A stretch of DNA of 64,000 nt from Runella sp. CRIBMP. Its GTDB lineage: Bacteria > Bacteroidota > Bacteroidia > Cytophagales > Spirosomataceae. Below the pieces are notes generated by a model, which had not been told where the DNA came from, made no database searches, and worked only from the letters and a program-made list of their open reading frames with translations. Positions 1-6,438 of the stretch are shown here, one piece after another. The stretch is from NCBI RefSeq assembly GCF_009905605.1, contig NZ_JAAAKZ010000010.1:1-64000 (forward strand), written 5' to 3'. Within the stretch, counting starts at the first letter, position 1, and every line of letters begins with the position of its first letter. A program made the translations under genes and the position numbers.

Positions 1-113
1 TGCGGCCGTTCTTTCTGCCAAAACCAATTGCACAAAGGCTTCAAATTCGAGTGTTGTTTTTAATAAGCTTTCCTATTTGATTGACTCCGCACACACTATT
101 TTAACGTAATTGC

Positions 114-815
114 TTACAACCAAGAACCCACAAAATGATGAATGGCGAAGGCTTCCGAAAGTTTAGCAGCGCCGTAACCCATTTTTTTATTCTCCCGGTA
201 CAGCGTAGCCTCTCTGCCTCTAAACGGCCCAATGAGTTCTGGCGGCAGAAGCCTAACACTTTCTTTGTCTTCAAAATCATGATACACCCGATTGATCAAC
301 GTGGGCCCCGTGGTTTCCATGACGTAGTAATACTTACCCAACTCCTGCCACCGAGGCGTAAGCAAGCGTAGCTGCTCCTCACAACGCGCGATAGTCACTT
401 TAAAAAATTCATGCTCAGGAGCGGCAGACATATACGCACTCCCCAAAAACACCGGAAACTCGCGATGTAAACCCTCATCTCTGGGCTCTAAACCTATACA
501 AACGGGGTGCGTAAGCAAGCTATCTATAGGTTTGAGGCACTCACAATCAAAATCTATGTACACCCCGCCAAACGCATACAGCACCAAATACTTAATGACA
601 TCTACTCGCTGCGTAAGATACGGAAGCGACGCGTACAAAGGCCATAAATGCGAGTACCGCTCTCGCACCAGTGCATTGCTCTTTGCATCATCCCACAGTT
701 CAAAAGACCATTCAGGATGTTTCAATCGCCATGTTTGCGAATAACCAAGCAATGACCTTGGAATAGGTTTATTGCCTAACCAGATTTGGTGAAAGGTTTT
801 GAGAAACGATTTCAT
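114..815 (-). CDS. DXD-type sugar-nucleotide glycosyltransferase (Gly_transf_sug family)
   Basis: Likely transfers a sugar from a nucleotide-sugar donor in the cytoplasm. The protein (233 residues from the ATG at 815) starts with the IHQIW-type N-terminus seen in the OCH1/capsular Gly_transf_sug family, here FHQIWLGNKPIP. A GGVYIDFD segment near residue 90 carries the DXD metal-binding motif. A GTG two codons upstream is possible but the ATG is preferred. It is the last gene of a five-gene minus-strand run, starting about 10 bp after the TlpA-like gene stop, so it is probably cotranscribed with the GG-leader peptide gene. The acceptor is unknown. Glycan synthesis unrelated to the peptide is an equally legitimate reading; peptide modification is inference from context only. 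Confidence 0.85.
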   Translation of the reverse strand: MKSFLKTFHQIWLGNKPIPRSLLGYSQTWRLKHPEWSFELWDDAKSNALVRERYSHLWPLYASLPYLTQRVDVIKYLVLYAFGGVYIDFDCECLKPIDSLLTHPVCIGLEPRDEGLHREFPVFLGSAYMSAAPEHEFFKVTIARCEEQLRLLTPRWQELGKYYYVMETTGPTLINRVYHDFEDKESVRLLPPELIGPFRGREATLYRENKKMGYGAAKLSEAFAIHHFVGSWL

Positions 816-825
816 AATCACAAAA

Positions 826-2298
826 CTATTTTTTCAATAACTCATCAAAGATTTGTCTAAGTTTTGGATCACTTGGGCGCGGGGCATCTGCGCTAATAAC
901 TTTACCATCTTTACCGATGAGAATATAACGTGGAATAGAAGATATTTTGAAGTGTTTCGCAAAAGTCGATTCAAAATTATTAGCTAATATATAGCTGTCA
1001 TTTTCAGGATTGATACCTATGCGAGTCATTGATTTCTCCCAAGCCATACGGTTCTTATCTAAACTGATAAAGGCAAAATTTATTTCTTTGCCCATATACA
1101 GTTGCTGAAGTTGATGGGAGGCTGGCATTTCGGCAATACAGGGCGAACACCAAGATGCCCAAAAATCTATGTATAAAACTTTTTCTTTTGAGGATTGTAA
1201 TAAGTAATTTAATGAGTATTTTTTCGAGTTACTTTTGAACAAAACAGAAGACATGAAATCTTTTTGCAAAGGCTCTTTTCCATCTGACAATAAAACGTTA
1301 TTTTTAATATATTTGACATAATCGTCATTTTTACAATCTAAATAAAATCTTTTTAATAGTGGCTCAACCCCATCTTCTTGAGCATTTTTTTCAATTTTCA
1401 TTTTAATTATTTTAAATAACAGGTAGTCTTTTATTTTCCCTTTAAAATTTTTATTAGCCATTGCATATAAATTAGAAATGTCGCTTTTTAATCCCATTTT
1501 TTGACACAAAAAATAAACATAAAATAATGACGAATTTTTATAATTATTAACATATATACATTCGTCACATTCAAAGTCTTTACTTAAATTATCATAAGTA
1601 GAGACTAAGCCAATAGGAAATTTTTTCTTATACTGTTCTAAAATAAAAGGAGAAAAATAATCTCTCTCTAAATAATAAATCTCATCAAATTTACAAAGAG
1701 CCATAATATAACTTTTAAAACGGGAACTGACTGTTTTCTTTTTTTCAAAAATATTCAAATATTCTAATATCCTCTCATTTCTTTCTTTAGACAATTTAAC
1801 TTGTTTATCTACAGGAAATTTTATAGGAAACATTGCTCTCGGTCCTTCAATCTCTCCTACCCTTTGTTTTAAATCAACTAAAAAATCCAACTCGTTTGTT
1901 CGTACATTGTCTTTAAGAGACCGTAATCGTGTATATCCATTTGCATCTTTATAGGCTATTAATGAATCACCAGGGTAAATTAAAAAACTAGTCCAAGATT
2001 CCATTTCTAAAAGTGGCTTATTAGTATTAATATCTGCAGTCAGTGCTCTAACAGGGTGAGGAGTTTCTATTTTAAGTATAAGGTTAGACTTTTGCCCATT
2101 ATACTCAAAAGGCGGTGCAGTATCGCCATATTCATCAAAAATTTGCCAAGAAATAGTTTCATTCTTATGTACCTCATTTATTATTGTTATCGTCTGAAGA
2201 GCTTCAAAAGCAATTTCATTTCTTAAAAAACTTTCGCTTTGCGAATGGCTATTACATGAAAAAACAATAACTATGAAAAAATTAATTATCTGTCGCAT
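826..2298 (-). CDS. TlpA/ResA-like thioredoxin-fold protein with long N-terminal domain
   Basis: Secreted thiol-disulfide oxidoreductase of 490 residues. The N-terminus is a short signal sequence with a cysteine near residue 15 (VFSCNS), so it may be a lipoprotein facing the periplasm. Residues 20-360 are an unassigned lysine-rich domain typical of Bacteroidota AhpC/TSA-TlpA proteins (DUF4369-like region). The C-terminal 120 residues hold a WASWCSPC active site (Cys384, Cys387) and the cis-proline segment SSIPRYI. The gene is visibly more AT-rich than the flanking glycosyltransferase genes, especially between 1200 and 1800, which could reflect transfer or relaxed selection. It lies 82 bp downstream of the cysteine peptide gene and may reduce or isomerise the disulfides made by the VKOR fusion, which is inference. 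Confidence 0.85.
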   Translation of the reverse strand: MRQIINFFIVIVFSCNSHSQSESFLRNEIAFEALQTITIINEVHKNETISWQIFDEYGDTAPPFEYNGQKSNLILKIETPHPVRALTADINTNKPLLEMESWTSFLIYPGDSLIAYKDANGYTRLRSLKDNVRTNELDFLVDLKQRVGEIEGPRAMFPIKFPVDKQVKLSKERNERILEYLNIFEKKKTVSSRFKSYIMALCKFDEIYYLERDYFSPFILEQYKKKFPIGLVSTYDNLSKDFECDECIYVNNYKNSSLFYVYFLCQKMGLKSDISNLYAMANKNFKGKIKDYLLFKIIKMKIEKNAQEDGVEPLLKRFYLDCKNDDYVKYIKNNVLLSDGKEPLQKDFMSSVLFKSNSKKYSLNYLLQSSKEKVLYIDFWASWCSPCIAEMPASHQLQQLYMGKEINFAFISLDKNRMAWEKSMTRIGINPENDSYILANNFESTFAKHFKISSIPRYILIGKDGKVISADAPRPSDPKLRQIFDELLKK

Positions 2299-2332
2299 AA
2301 CATTTATTTAAGTAAGATTAATTTTTCAAACC

Positions 2333-2366
2333 TTGGGAAGCGGCAATTAATTGCTTTACTTCCCAA
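2333..2366 (-). promoter_or_regulatory. intercistronic hairpin after the GG-leader peptide gene
   Basis: An 8-bp perfect stem (TTGGGAAG at 2333-2340 with CTTCCCAA at 2359-2366) encloses a second palindrome, GCAATTAATTGC at 2343-2354. It lies between the peptide stop codon and the TlpA gene. On the minus strand it is not followed by a clear T-run, so a full terminator is doubtful. By analogy with other peptide operons it may stabilise the upstream mRNA or attenuate read-through, which would raise peptide levels above enzyme levels. That role is inference. Confidence 0.5.
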
Positions 2367-2380
2367 AGTTCTATTTTACA

Positions 2381-2617
2381 TTATAGATTTTTAGGGCAAC
2401 TATCACAACAATACCCAGTTCTTTCACCGGCACCTCCATTAGACACATGAATGTTATTTGCGCCTTTTTTGGCATTGTCCATACTCATGGTATAAGTGCT
2501 GTATTGTCGCTCTCCATTTTGTTCGTACCAGTATCTGCATGTACCAGAACCTCCTGCTACCTTTTTCATTTCAGCTCTTGTCAAGGCAAAATCTCCGAAA
2601 TTTGATAATCTGTTCAT
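2381..2617 (-). CDS. double-glycine-leader cysteine-containing secreted peptide precursor
   Basis: A 78-residue precursor. The leader ends LTRAEMKKVAGG at residues 12-23, which matches the L-[ST]-R-x-E-M-K-x-[VI]-x-GG leader of Bacteroidota natural-product/bacteriocin-like precursors. Cleavage after Gly23 would release a 55-residue core starting SGTC, with four cysteines (27, 70, 71, 74), enough for two disulfides, and many Ser, Thr, Tyr and Asn residues. It sits 32 bp downstream of the VKOR fusion gene and upstream of the TlpA gene, so its neighbours are oxidative-folding proteins. No dedicated C39 ABC exporter or radical-SAM or lanthionine enzyme is visible in this window. The function (antimicrobial, signalling or structural) is unknown; the leader assignment is firm, the rest is inference. 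Confidence 0.8.
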   Translation of the reverse strand: MNRLSNFGDFALTRAEMKKVAGGSGTCRYWYEQNGERQYSTYTMSMDNAKKGANNIHVSNGGAGERTGYCCDSCPKNL

Positions 2618-2649
2618 TGTTTAATAGTTTAGAATGTTTAAAAATTGAT

Positions 2650-4326
2650 TTATTTGAATTGGCCAATTCCTATGGTAGAATAATAAGTACAGAGTTTGGG
2701 CAGCTCTCGTACTTGGTAAAATTTAGGCAGCTCTACTGCATTTAGAAAAGTAGTAGGTGCAGTCATAACTCCTGCTAACTCAAGCCAACGAACATGAAGA
2801 TGCAGTTGATTTTTACCGCTATCGCTACGGTAATCACCCCGTACTTTGCTACTCCATTCGTTGTAATGCTTTCCATTGGTTTCAAACCAACGGTGAAGTG
2901 CCGCTCCCATCTGATCAGTGGGTAAACTCAGAACTTGCCTAGCTACTTTACTCGCAATATCTTCGTCAGAAAACCCTGCGGCTAAAATGATTTGTACTTG
3001 TAAGGCTTCGTTAGTCTCAAGTAATTTTTTGATTTCCAAATGATTGTGACGACAAGTCGCACAAGTAGGGCTGATTACCATGATCAATGAATTTTCAGCA
3101 TTCGGATTTCCCAACCTAATTACTTTCATCCCTTCAAAAATCGGGGGTAATATCTGCTGCTTGCTCATTAACCCTTGCAAATAATCCGGGTCAAATTTTA
3201 GTTTTTGAAATTCCCGAAATAAGGAATCATAGCGGATGGATTTCTGTAAATGTCCTTTAACCAACGTCCAAAGCATAGGTACAATAGCAAAAGTGCCTCC
3301 TAAATAGAGCAGAGAATCCGGCGAAAAATCGTACGTCAGCAACGGTCTTCCTTCATCGGAGAAGTCGTTGATACTAAAGGCTGTAATTCCTATTCCCAAT
3401 TCTACCCAAAGCAGTACCTGCACTGTCAAACACAACACGCACCACTCCCGTGCTACTCGCCATTGGTAATAAACCGACCAAAAGGTATAAGGCAAAGAAA
3501 GAAAGGTCAAAGTGAAAAGCGAAGTGTGCAAAGTAGTAAGCTGTGTATTATTGCCTGTCCACATACTTAATGCCAAAGCTAGCAGGCTGCCTGCAAAATA
3601 AAATAGACCTACTTCACTCCAACTTAGCCACTCGGTTACTTTCGCAACGGGTGATTGAAGGATGGTTTGGCAATTGCTGCGACGGTTGATTTGGCATACT
3701 TTCTGTAAAAAGGAATTTTGGGAGTCAATACCGTACCAAACCAACATTCCGCTCACAATGGCTCCCACTAATTTGGTCGCTAAAAGGCCATAATAGGAGA
3801 GATTGGAAGCAAAAGTTTTTTTTTGAAGCAAACTCCACAGAACTACGCCTAAACATAGCAGTATGGCACTCACAATGAATGGAATACGCAAAGAATCAAT
3901 CCATTCCCGACGGCGGTTTTGGGCATATTCACGCTCACCCGAAGTCTCAGTGGGTTCTATCAATAGAGCAACACCCGTCCATTTATGGACAAAATCATTA
4001 TAACTGTCGCTCTGCCAGCCGCGTTGAGTATGCAGCCACTCTACGGTGCTGCCAATTTTTCGCACAGGCACAAACACTCCACCATCAACCTGCAAATGCG
4101 CCATAGCTGGAAGCGGTATTTCAGGCAAACGGTCGGGTGTAAGGCGCGTGGCCATGTTGGGCACGTTGAAATCGGTCAATACATCACTCAGCGCACTTAG
4201 GCTTGGGAAATCAGGATGTTGCCACATCGCATTGCGCAAACTACGCGCAGTAACGCGTACCTTACTCAGGTACAGAAGCATATTGGTAGCTTCAAGGGCA
4301 TTTTTTTCGGAGGGGTTTAGTTTCAT
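2650..4326 (-). CDS. C39-like domain / VKOR / thioredoxin fusion (disulfide-forming membrane protein)
   Basis: Probable inner-membrane disulfide generator of 558 residues from the ATG at 4326 (an in-frame GTG at 4347 is the alternative). Residues 5-128 align in pattern with the peptidase C39 fold, including the HPDFPSLSALSDVL stretch and a final LLIEP, but the catalytic Cys position reads ALEATN and the expected HFV reads VFV, so it should be inactive. Residues 145-365 are a VKOR domain with membrane helices, loop cysteines 211 and 219, and the active pair WCVLC (296, 299). The C-terminal DsbA/thioredoxin-like domain has CATC (422-425) and a T-x-P cis-proline (MTAPTTF). VKOR fused to its own thioredoxin partner normally oxidises periplasmic thiols using quinone. 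The adjacent GG-leader cysteine peptide is a natural candidate substrate. Confidence 0.85.
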   Translation of the reverse strand: MKLNPSEKNALEATNMLLYLSKVRVTARSLRNAMWQHPDFPSLSALSDVLTDFNVPNMATRLTPDRLPEIPLPAMAHLQVDGGVFVPVRKIGSTVEWLHTQRGWQSDSYNDFVHKWTGVALLIEPTETSGEREYAQNRRREWIDSLRIPFIVSAILLCLGVVLWSLLQKKTFASNLSYYGLLATKLVGAIVSGMLVWYGIDSQNSFLQKVCQINRRSNCQTILQSPVAKVTEWLSWSEVGLFYFAGSLLALALSMWTGNNTQLTTLHTSLFTLTFLSLPYTFWSVYYQWRVAREWCVLCLTVQVLLWVELGIGITAFSINDFSDEGRPLLTYDFSPDSLLYLGGTFAIVPMLWTLVKGHLQKSIRYDSLFREFQKLKFDPDYLQGLMSKQQILPPIFEGMKVIRLGNPNAENSLIMVISPTCATCRHNHLEIKKLLETNEALQVQIILAAGFSDEDIASKVARQVLSLPTDQMGAALHRWFETNGKHYNEWSSKVRGDYRSDSGKNQLHLHVRWLELAGVMTAPTTFLNAVELPKFYQVRELPKLCTYYSTIGIGQFK

Positions 4327-4368
4327 AAGATTTTTTATTTTTGTCACCCTGTAATGGTCTAAACTATC

Positions 4369-5754
4369 TTAGGCCAATACGACTGAATGCTTATCCACAA
4401 GAAGACTCTGCATTGTCCCTTTTATTTTCCCTTCCTTGTATTCGTCAAAAATCACCTCCCTAAACTGCCTCACTTTTTCCCGAAATGAATTTTCTCCCAG
4501 CAACCTTTCAAGTTTCTTTTTCAAATCCGCAAGGCGTTCGTGGGCAAAAGCACCACGCAGGCCCAAGCCGTGGTATTCAAGTTTGAGGGCGTTACCGTTT
4601 TGGTCGTAGTGCGGATCGAGGGGGTAGGCCAGCATCGGTACACCGTAATAAATAGCTTCCTTGATCGATCCAAACCCGGCGTGAGTAATAAAAACATCGG
4701 CTGAGGCCAATACCTCTAACTGCGGCACTCGGCTAAAAATGTGCGTACGGTCGGTAAGCAGTTTTCGGGCGCGGAGGGTTTCTATCACGTATTTATTTAC
4801 CGAGCATACCAAATGTACATTCGGCAATTCACGGATTACCTCCAATAAGTTGGTCACGAAGCGTAACAGGGTGGCGTCGGCGCCTTCGTGAAAGGTACCG
4901 AAACTGCAATAGATCAGCTTTTCTCCGTGCTGTTTTTGAGTCAAAATCGCTTCCCATGCCTGTTCAAATACGGGATCAAGCTCAGTATCTTGCCGATGCT
5001 CCCGCATACACAATCCCAAATAATGCTGATTGGGCTTACGTATTTCGGTGGCAAATTCAAACTCCAACGGCCCCAATATCAACTCAGGCACGTTGGCGAT
5101 CACCTGCGTCACGGTCACATCTTGGGCCAAAGGAAAATCAGGCAGCGCTTCCGCCAGCTGCTGTAGTCGCTGCCGGTGGCGGGTAACAGTCCATTGCATA
5201 AACCAAGACCTCACCCCAACCCCTCTCCATGTTGGAGAGGGGCTTTTTTTCTTTCTTGTTTCAGGTCGGGACGTTACGCCGCGCGGAATGAGGTAACTCT
5301 CCGATACGCTCGGCCAATCCTGCACCCGATAGGTAGAAGGCATGGGATTGAAGAACAGCAACTTAAACTCACTTCGGCGGGGGTTCAGTACCCAGAAATC
5401 GGTGCAGACAAACAAATCAATCAAAATAGCTGATGGGCGAATCTCATCAATAAGCGCGTCTAATTCACGCTTACGCTCCCAATACAGTTCGTCGTTACGG
5501 TAGGCTTTTAGAAGCCGCCAATAAGTGGGCTTTTGTTTCTGGGAAGCCAAAAAAGAGGCTTCCATATGGTAGCCGACCCTATGCCCTGAATTCATTACGG
5601 CTTGGTAGCCATTCTTGACCACGATTTCGGCCAATACTTGGCTTGTTACCGCATAATACACTTCATATTCATCCGCCAACAAATCCGCCAAGTACAGCGA
5701 GGGCAGTACATGGCTTCGGATGGCAGCGGGAAGAATGAGTAAGCGGGGTTTCAT
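4369..5754 (-). CDS. GT1-family (UGT/MGT-like) glycosyltransferase
   Basis: A GT-B fold glycosyltransferase of 461 residues from the ATG at 5754 (an upstream TTG at 5790 opens the same frame but adds 12 unlikely residues). The N-terminus MKPRLLILPAAIRSHVLPS is the acceptor-side Rossmann motif with the family histidine. The C-terminal donor site reads THAGFGSIKEAIYYGVPM followed by DQ, the usual H-x-G-x-x-S and DQ pattern. Family members glycosylate small molecules, lipids or aglycones. An extra segment of about 25 residues near residue 160 is encoded by an intergenic-type palindrome (see 5206-5250). The gene is first in the run that leads, 21-42 bp later, into the VKOR fusion, and it faces the XRE regulator across twin operator-like sites. 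Confidence 0.85.
   Translation of the reverse strand: MKPRLLILPAAIRSHVLPSLYLADLLADEYEVYYAVTSQVLAEIVVKNGYQAVMNSGHRVGYHMEASFLASQKQKPTYWRLLKAYRNDELYWERKRELDALIDEIRPSAILIDLFVCTDFWVLNPRRSEFKLLFFNPMPSTYRVQDWPSVSESYLIPRGVTSRPETRKKKSPSPTWRGVGVRSWFMQWTVTRHRQRLQQLAEALPDFPLAQDVTVTQVIANVPELILGPLEFEFATEIRKPNQHYLGLCMREHRQDTELDPVFEQAWEAILTQKQHGEKLIYCSFGTFHEGADATLLRFVTNLLEVIRELPNVHLVCSVNKYVIETLRARKLLTDRTHIFSRVPQLEVLASADVFITHAGFGSIKEAIYYGVPMLAYPLDPHYDQNGNALKLEYHGLGLRGAFAHERLADLKKKLERLLGENSFREKVRQFREVIFDEYKEGKIKGTMQSLLVDKHSVVLA
5206..5250. repeat. short palindromic repeat inserted in frame in the GT1 gene
   Basis: A perfect 10-bp stem, CCCCTCTCCA at 5220-5229 with TGGAGAGGGG at 5233-5242 and a 3-nt loop, is flanked by CCTCACCCCAA on one side and a T-run on the other. 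This arrangement is a recurrent intergenic repeat in many bacterial genomes. Here it lies inside an open reading frame and is translated on the minus strand as a KKKSPSPTWRGVGV segment with no counterpart expected in GT1 enzymes. Confidence 0.75.
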
Positions 5755-5816
5755 GCAATCGTTTTCAGGGCTTAGGAACGTATGCCACAAAAGACTATAC
5801 TTTTTTCAAGAAACAG

Positions 5817-5852
5817 TATCGGTTTTCCGATAATTTCAATCGGTTTTCCGAT
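5817..5852. promoter_or_regulatory. twin palindromic operator-like sites between GT1 and XRE genes
   Basis: Two palindromes share the core ATCGG-TTTT-CCGAT. One is at 5817-5832 (extended to TATCGG/CCGATA) and the other at 5839-5852. Their centres are 21 bp apart, two helical turns, so both face the same side of DNA. They sit 63 bp upstream of the GT1 start and about 176 bp upstream of the XRE start. The size and symmetry suit a dimeric XRE-type repressor, and the divergent XRE gene is the obvious candidate. Binding is inference. Confidence 0.65.
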
Positions 5853-6027
5853 ATTTTTCGCTTAAAGACCGTTTGATAACTTTTCGAGCAAATGAGAGGC
5901 ACCATCTATACAATTTTTCTATCTTGCGTCGTTACACAGCTATAGCCGTCCCTACTTTGATACTTATGTGAGCGTTATCGAGTACTCTCGACAGAGCACA
6001 CCCATTCACAATTTATCAATATATTAT

Positions 6028-6438
6028 ATGACCTTTGGGACATTTTTACTGAACCTACGCCATGAACACAGATTATCGCAGAAAGACGTGGCTGCTGCCG
6101 TCAACGTGGCACAAAGCACCTACTGCGACTGGGAAAGTGATAAACACTTGCCCAAGATTGCCTACATTCGGCCATTGGCCGATCTTTTCAGGGTAAAAGA
6201 AGAAGTGATTTTGCAAAGAATTAATGGGCACAACGCAGCCACCGAAACGGAGCTACAACGCCTAAAGACCGAAAATGAGGATTTACGCCAACGCGACGCC
6301 AAACGGGAAGAAACCATCCAGGTATTGGAAAATACCATAAAGAAGCTTTCTAAAACCAATTCTTCAAATGGGGAAATAAATGAACAGACGGGGGGGGGGA
6401 GTAAGGCCCTGATTAGCAACAAATTAAAAAAGGGATAA
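6028..6438 (+). CDS. XRE-family HTH transcriptional regulator with coiled-coil tail
   Basis: DNA-binding regulator of 136 residues from the ATG at 6028; an in-frame GTG at 5968 would add 20 residues ahead of the domain and is less likely. Residues 1-63 are a Cro/C1-type HTH: LRHEHRLSQKDVAAAVNVAQSTYCDWESDKHLPK. Residues 70-115 are a charged heptad-like coiled coil, probably for dimerisation. The last 20 residues are encoded by a stretch with a run of ten G bases (6390-6399), a likely slippage site. It is divergent from the GT1-VKOR-peptide run and may bind the twin palindromes at 5817-5852. There is no ligand-binding domain, so any signal must act through partners or tail length. Confidence 0.85.
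   Translation: MTFGTFLLNLRHEHRLSQKDVAAAVNVAQSTYCDWESDKHLPKIAYIRPLADLFRVKEEVILQRINGHNAATETELQRLKTENEDLRQRDAKREETIQVLENTIKKLSKTNSSNGEINEQTGGGSKALISNKLKKG

Follow-up and report, generated by a model that had tools for sequence, protein, structure and literature searches.

A Runella peptide operon encoding a C39-like/VKOR/thioredoxin fusion that may form disulfides before export

The described systems closest to the locus presented here are the bacteroidetocins and the glycocins. Bacteroidetocins (class IIf) are four-Cys, GG-leader peptides of Bacteroidota. Their peptide gene is preceded by a gene for a multi-transmembrane protein and followed by one for a thiol oxidoreductase, after which comes that for a C39-peptidase ABC exporter. 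A clear immunity gene is not described, and neither the oxidoreductase nor the transmembrane protein gave protection (PMC6671954). The glycocins sublancin and pallidocin, as covered by the available part of the pallidocin report, combine a peptide, a glycosyltransferase (GT), a C39-peptidase exporter, a thioredoxin-like protein and a DsbB-type oxidase in one operon logic (PMC6405829). Here, a locus at positions 114–6438 of a 64,000-nucleotide stretch of the freshwater bacterium Runella sp. CRIBMP was analyzed (the whole stretch, C2:1-64000, is hereafter the window; its first base is also the first of contig C2, one of 55 contigs of the genome). Six open reading frames (ORFs) encode, in order, a GT, a TlpA-like protein, a peptide, a fusion protein of C39-like, VKOR and thioredoxin domains, and a UDP-glycosyltransferase (UGT)-like GT, all on the minus strand, followed by an XRE-type regulator on the plus strand. 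This gene order and these domains had been proposed in a sequence-only reading of the window, and all six ORFs lie where that reading placed them, with Pfam in agreement. The locus is very probably a dedicated peptide maturation and export operon. More specifically, it probably serves the biosynthesis and export of a double-glycine-leader, disulfide-bonded and probably glycosylated peptide, with oxidation before export by an inverted VKOR, and is split by a contig break.

The fusion protein (2650..4347, minus strand; 565 aa) consists of a C39-like domain, an extra transmembrane helix, a VKOR domain and a thioredoxin domain, as assigned from Pfam (VKOR 4.6e-16, Peptidase_C39 1.9e-6, Thioredoxin_4 2.2e-5), an AlphaFold model and conserved Cys. 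The VKOR match (PF07884) exceeds the family cut-off and both Cys pairs are present, with Cys 218, 226, 303 and 306 kept in 91/91, 91/91, 90/91 and 90/91 fusions; the thioredoxin CxxC is formed by Cys 429/432. The model, built with 75 sequences (pLDDT 91.5, pTM 0.81), begins with a mixed domain at the N-terminus, continues with six long helices in the membrane part and ends in a thioredoxin-like part. Its listed Foldseek matches include PCAT1, isolated C39 proteases such as the leader-bound 6mpz, and DsbA/ScsC/BdbD proteins; since no VKOR structure occurs among the 50 matches listed, the VKOR assignment rests on sequence. The C39-like domain (approximately residues 1-140; 3928..4347, minus strand) aligned in hhalign with the C39 domains of C39-peptidase ABC exporters (PCATs) with a probability of 98.7 and an E of 1.9e-16. 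At the aligned catalytic columns of Peptidase C39, Cys is found in 0/91 and His in 1/91 fusions, with Asn at the Cys column in 65/91, and judging from these columns the domain is non-catalytic. Because the catalytic Cys is lost in 91/91, the domain may dock the leader instead. In the available part of PMC6363468, degenerate C39 domains are reported to serve in substrate recruitment, and for one protease a hydrophobic groove is described that is filled by residues -4, -7 and -12 of the leader.

The fusion recurs across Bacteroidota next to double-glycine peptides. When 84,980 species genomes were scanned with a pattern, 509 stretches came up, and 425 of them encode a relative; the best 80 were examined, together with seven plasmid records, and duplicate loci were removed prior to counting. 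At 47/80 loci the operon includes a downstream exporter, on the fusion's strand and with gaps < 700 bp; among these 47, a GG peptide was recognized in 29, a TlpA-like protein in 39 and HlyD in 39. The plasmid records, all with the fusion, belong to Emticicia (two), Parabacteroides (two), Spirosoma, Hymenobacter and Aureibacter, with PCAT in 6/7 and HlyD in 5/7 of the stretches shown. On one Emticicia plasmid, typed conjugative, genes annotated kwaA and kwaB (Kiwa anti-phage) lie directly past the peptide operon (L014:18083-19587). A VKOR domain of some kind occurs in 93 of the 395 Bacteroidota genomes drawn, and the fusion protein was matched in 56/291 genomes of the order, some of them weakly, via exporter-length frames.

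The precursor peptide beside the fusion (2381..2617, minus strand; 78 aa), defined by its ORF and by peptide analysis, has a 23-residue GG leader (2549..2617, minus strand) and a 55-residue core with Cys at positions 4, 47, 48 and 51 and a C-terminal YCCxSC motif. In the register of the LahT protease-leader complex, as given in the available part of PMC6363468, the leader carries L-12, M-7, V-4, G-2 and G-1, and thus has the hydrophobic positions and GG end of a double-glycine leader. Its relatives are hydrophobic at -12, -7 and -4 in 73/73, 73/73 and 72/73 cases, a regularity that was partly built into the search pattern and counts for correspondingly less, but Arg/Lys at -10 (73/73) and at -6 (70/73) was not imposed by the pattern. 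The peptide has no Pfam match, and the NCBIfam model of a Chryseobacterium bacteriocin-like leader matches it weakly (E 0.046; 13.9 bits with a cut-off of 23.5). All seven peptide matches (E <= 0.01) in the genus, from 6/13 genomes, adjoin a fusion gene, so the pairing of peptide and fusion is more than chance. In plasmids, a search with the peptide gave six records, none of them convincing (best E 4).

The parity of the core Cys points to disulfides. The sample comprised 76 distinct GG candidates on the fusion strand within 8 kb, collected with a pattern in which the Cys count had no part; three candidates were left out, two because they lack Cys and one because it has just one. An even number of core Cys occurs in 72 of the 73 distinct peptides with at least four, vs. 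739/1111 mechanical ORFs of like size with 4–9 Cys (Fisher p 1.7e-11). The proposal of the sequence-only reading that the fusion oxidizes the GG-leader peptide gains support from this parity and from the recurrent linkage, and disulfides in the peptide are, on such sequence features, probably made by the fusion. The TlpA-like thiol-disulfide oxidoreductase (826..2298, minus strand; Thioredoxin_8 4e-14) has a hydrophobic N-terminus and is predicted, from this match and the N-terminal sequence, to be exported to the periplasm. Its gene is directly next after the peptide in 44/72 cases, and by a simple pattern 85/111 TlpA-like proteins have a hydrophobic N-terminus. This position led TlpA to be considered as a cognate immunity protein; it is not the first choice, as the bacteroidetocin oxidoreductase gave no protection.

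Where the oxidation takes place depends on the orientation of the VKOR. Relative to a standard VKOR, the model has one extra transmembrane helix, between the C39-like domain and the VKOR, and both soluble domains and the active site thereby come to lie on one side of the membrane. That active side carries a mean of 16.3 Lys+Arg per fusion and the other side 1.2 (~0.16 vs. 0.03 per residue), the density being higher on the active side in 91/91 fusions (17 vs. 3 residues in the window protein). When only the shared VKOR loops are counted, Lys+Arg of the active side exceeds that of the other side in 91/91 fusions but in 0/18 ordinary VKORs of the phylum (17 reverse, 1 equal); the 18 derive from 30 loci fetched, of which nine escaped the profile built from the fusions, two (L156 and L173) were excluded for their likeness to the fusion and one was a duplicate domain. 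By the positive-inside rule, the active side of the fusion is predicted to be cytoplasmic. In exporters the C39 domain is cytoplasmic, and six of the seven weak fusion matches to exporter-length open frames span the extra helix, as does the profile match to PCAT1. These sequence features make it likely that the VKOR of the fusion is inverted, with its active site facing the cytoplasm.

Several points weigh against this orientation. An hhalign alignment with in-family exporters stops short of the extra helix, loop charge is a predictor of topology only, and oxidation in the reducing cytoplasm is unusual. In the available part of their paper, the pallidocin authors call cytoplasmic oxidation unlikely for their glycocin and favor oxidation after export (PMC6405829). 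The same operon and product might go with a VKOR in the usual orientation: the peptide would be exported reduced and then oxidized in the periplasm, the route assumed for sublancin and pallidocin, and the C39-like domain would be periplasmic or vestigial. The well-studied VKOR/DsbB enzymes do act outside, as is generally known, and the TlpA-like protein is also predicted to be periplasmic. However, the loop charges of all 91 fusions run opposite to those of the ordinary VKORs, and since the extra helix keeps the N-terminus, active site and thioredoxin together, a periplasmic active site would require the C39-like domain to be periplasmic too, although its flank is rich in Lys and Arg. Periplasmic oxidation is accordingly rated as rather unlikely, and the inverted VKOR is preferred.

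Two GTs accompany the peptide. The GT1-type enzyme (4369..5790, minus strand; 473 aa) is UDPGT/macrolide-GT-like (Pfam UDPGT 1e-11; NCBIfam MGT 2.2e-19, below the cut-off). An in-frame extra stretch in its gene (window 5200-5292; KKSPSPxWRGVGVR) is common to this genome, a metagenome-assembled genome (MAG) and R. aurantiaca and is not in the other aligned relatives; the idea that it is a repeat found no support, as the genome holds no second copy. The second GT (114..821, minus strand; 235 aa) is a GT32-type enzyme with a DXD motif (Gly_transf_sug, PF04488 3.1e-16), whose counterparts in 2/13 genomes of the genus are 95% and 91% identical; the other matches reach 29–30%. A SunS-family model is not among the ten NCBIfam matches of the 473-aa GT, and the 235-aa GT has no NCBIfam match. 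S-glycosylation of the peptide was also considered and is judged unlikely, because the even Cys counts leave no spare Cys.

Between fusion and exporter, 59 non-core ORFs of at least 150 aa were collected from the 47 loci, and 28 of them match nine Pfam GT families at E <= 0.001: GT25 (6), GT2 (4), GT2_4 (4), UDPGT (4), GT10 (3), PLOD (2), GT61 (2), Glyco_trans_1_4 (2) and Gly_transf_sug (1). The figure of 28 is the sum over families and assumes one family per ORF; per-protein scans show no double match at this threshold. A further nine interior ORFs match DUF6625 and two DUF6734. For comparison, GT2 (2) and PMT_2 (2) were the GT families seen among 130 flanking ORFs, a random draw from 428 with at most 800 aa (counted among the families listed, 25 of 207; single flank GTs may be hidden). 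Single-locus extras are GT8 and GT11 at L115 and a UDP-galactopyranose mutase at L142. For DUF6625, a structure modelled with AlphaFold (pLDDT 72.8, confidence being low beyond about residue 219) gave 50 listed PDB matches, all 50 of them glycosyltransferases (best E 9e-5, TM-score ~0.3-0.4), and on this modelled fold DUF6625 (L130:12264-13163 and relatives) is probably a glycosyltransferase as well.

A quick tree places the window in a group of seven rows, all with a UGT (SH-aLRT 96). UGTs occur in a single clade (support 92), in 23 of its 31 rows, and seven changes are required on the tree; L059 was labelled manually as having a UGT, since the frame of that gene is interrupted. A UGT together with a second GT occurs in 9/9 loci of the window's clade (the seven tree rows plus R. 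aurantiaca and the MAG, both split over contigs). The second GT is GT32 in the window, R. aurantiaca and the MAG, GT2_4 in L065, L066, L071 and L074 (in L074 by a custom profile only), PLOD in L069 and GT32 plus PLOD in L070. As different GT families were recruited to one slot, it can be argued that the sugar matters to the product.

Some loci speak against a general role of glycosylation. Five of the six GT25 matches are under the Pfam cut-off, and 24/47 exporter loci, L085 among them, have no recognized GT or DUF6625 (DUF6734 not being counted as a GT, and a GT61 row of L092, already a GT locus, being left out of DUF6625). CCxxC-type peptide ends occur at fusions without a detected GT, at L085 (a complete locus) and L127 (exporter not in view). 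The GTs that the sequence-only reading had included in the system are real parts of it, at 28/59 interior ORFs and 9/9 clade loci, but are not universal. Because of these GT-free fusions and exporter loci, glycosylation is, as far as gene content indicates, a clade-specific addition and not core. It is also quite possible, though not favored, that the GTs leave the peptide untouched and decorate a cell-surface glycan or other metabolite, e.g., for self-protection, being merely co-regulated with a bacteroidetocin-like disulfide peptide. The exporter loci without a GT and the resemblance of the GT1-like enzyme to small-molecule and macrolide GTs would fit such a target, but it accounts poorly for nine GT families filling the fusion-exporter stretch and for a second GT of GT32, GT2_4 or PLOD type at every locus of the clade. 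The peptide is thus, on the gene content, somewhat more credible as the GT acceptor.

Other tailoring genes were seen elsewhere. In Parabacteroides and, on the other strand, in Mucilaginibacter, a LanC-like protein and galactosyltransferase-type GTs lie near the fusion (L017:8999-11500, L128, L129), hinting at further tailoring. In Dyadobacter, an FkbM-like methyltransferase lies between peptide and GT (L076:13316-14167), a weak match below the Pfam cut-off.

The sequence-only reading had found no exporter in view, which is an effect of the contig edge (1..1): as the window begins at base 1 of C2, the downstream neighbors of the last gene lie outside it. The exporter is present on contig C5, as recognized by collinearity with R. 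aurantiaca. At one contig end of that species (L058), the operon continues from the GT32 gene through an insert to genes for a C39-peptidase ABC exporter and HlyD; L058 9402-10336 aligns to window 1-937 at 88.8%, and L058 up to 9376 aligns to the end of C5 at 91–95%, with 25 bases separating both alignments. On C5 (L064), genes for the exporter and HlyD are accompanied by one for a second GG peptide with four Cys and by a small lipoprotein-like gene, and since L058 is collinear with both contig ends, these genes are most likely the other half of the operon. No second copy of the 113 contig-edge bases was found anywhere in the genome, so the break was resolved via collinearity.

The C5 copy has weaknesses. 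Its exporter frame (L064:9853-12178) is interrupted in this assembly, matching R. aurantiaca residues 1-721 of 783 with the last 64 residues in another frame, and the last 95 bases of C5 have no match to R. aurantiaca. The interruption near the 3' end may reflect decay or a sequencing or assembly error, another element may lie at the C5-C2 junction, and this strain's exporter copy may be non-functional. A decayed or non-functional locus in this strain is nonetheless considered unlikely. It would agree with the interrupted frame, with the unmatched contig end and with a decayed-looking sister locus in another Runella (L059, 5666-9516), where the GT1 gene is interrupted, the peptide frame stops just past the GG and no exporter lies in the stretch, but the frames of all six genes in the window are open, an assembly or sequencing error may account for the interruption, and the paralogous exporter on contig C12, a 752-aa open frame, might serve. 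In the relative R. limosa, the exporter is uninterrupted. Between the second GT and the exporter, the small genes differ in several Runella (L064:12351-13036, L054:11686-12224, L055:3140-3373, L060:12263-12424); some presumably resemble toxin-antitoxin modules, and the gap looks as if it were an insertion hot spot.

Within the window, the intergenic gaps are 21, 32, 82 and 4 bp when the ORFs begin at their first starts. If the fusion and the 235-aa GT are instead started at ATGs further downstream, the 42, 32, 82 and 10 bp given earlier are reproduced. The divergent XRE-type regulator (5968..6438, plus strand; HTH_31 1e-8) has a counterpart at C12 in the same genome, also divergent beside a fusion, where the order is XRE, fusion, UGT, a first peptide, TlpA, two further peptides, a second TlpA and the exporter.

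The sequence directly shows which genes are present and how they are linked, that Cys numbers are even, that the catalytic Cys is lost, that charges are asymmetric, that GTs were recruited repeatedly and that an exporter lies on C5. A scheme can be built around these points in which leader docking, cytoplasmic oxidation, the sugar on the peptide and a bacteriocin-like role are what we infer. The leader of the precursor would dock on the fusion at its C39-like domain, which is catalytically dead. The thioredoxin domain and the cytoplasm-facing VKOR would then oxidize the four core Cys to two disulfides, passing the electrons to the quinone pool. Sugar would be attached by the GT1-like and GT32 enzymes, likewise in the cytoplasm; with every Cys in use, it would go on O or N. 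The C39-peptidase ABC exporter on C5 would cut the leader after GG and export the peptide with HlyD, and the TlpA-like protein would act in the periplasm as an isomerase or protectant. By analogy only, the product may serve antagonism of other bacteria, or signalling.

The chances seem about even that the inverted VKOR and the dead C39 domain together make up a leader-guided oxidase that places disulfides in ribosomal peptides in the cytoplasm before export. Such a protein would be a new tailoring enzyme of ribosomally synthesized and post-translationally modified peptides (RiPPs), widespread in Bacteroidota with its 425 stretches and, in several lineages, paired with an interchangeable GT slot. 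If true, peptide disulfide formation here would be a leader-guided, cytoplasmic step before export, contrary to the rule that structural disulfides form outside, and the coordination of glycosylation and oxidation on one precursor would be explained. It would also provide a ready enzyme for producing disulfide peptides in the cytoplasm of bacteria. A large family of exported peptides, rich in cysteine, possibly glycosylated and apparently little examined, would become accessible in Bacteroidota of the environment and the gut.

Among known proteins, the fusion resembles the VKOR-thioredoxin fusion of Synechococcus (PDB 3kp9/4nv2) in having a VKOR with CxxC and a C-terminal thioredoxin domain, with matching profiles. 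Unlike that protein, the Runella fusion adds an N-terminal C39-like domain and a transmembrane helix, and its loop charges were compared with those of the 18 VKORs of the phylum. Inverted VKOR/DsbB for making disulfides in the cytoplasm was reportedly presented by Hatahet and Ruddock in 2013 (cited in PMC5471842). The natural inverted case is archaeal, and the engineered and archaeal versions are general-purpose and not known to have a leader-docking domain. The C39-like domains of type I exporters such as HlyB, in the available part of PMC6363468, share the C39 fold without the catalytic Cys and a proposed role in substrate recruitment, but the Runella domain is fused to a redox enzyme and not to an exporter. 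No account of a C39-like/VKOR fusion in peptide operons was found in the open PMC literature (among the titles and abstract starts listed, with subscription papers outside this scope), and the words vitamin K, VKOR, thioredoxin and TlpA are absent from the accessible part of a study on Bacteroidales RiPP mining (PMC10352776).

Among operons, counterparts of the bacteroidetocin transmembrane protein, peptide, oxidoreductase and exporter stand in that order across the window and C5, with a GT and the insert before the exporter; the likeness concerns the layout, and the transmembrane proteins may or may not be of one family. The bacteroidetocin region differs in having four genes without GTs, and its leader and core are 15 and 42 residues vs. 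23 and 55 in Runella, as far as the available part of PMC6671954 describes it. With the glycocins, the locus shares a C39-peptidase ABC exporter in the operon, on C5, as well as a thioredoxin and a quinone-linked oxidase, here both domains of one protein. In contrast to the glycocins as described in the accessible part of PMC6405829, the oxidase is VKOR rather than DsbB, fused and probably inverted, the GTs are of UDPGT and Gly_transf_sug type without a SunS-type match, no Cys remains for an S-linked sugar, and HlyD is present. The operon is thus a variant of known peptide systems in which an enzyme of a possibly new type is found. In its working it resembles a glycocin operon and in its layout a bacteroidetocin operon, but its GTs are not those of a glycocin, and its oxidase differs from those of both systems as described.

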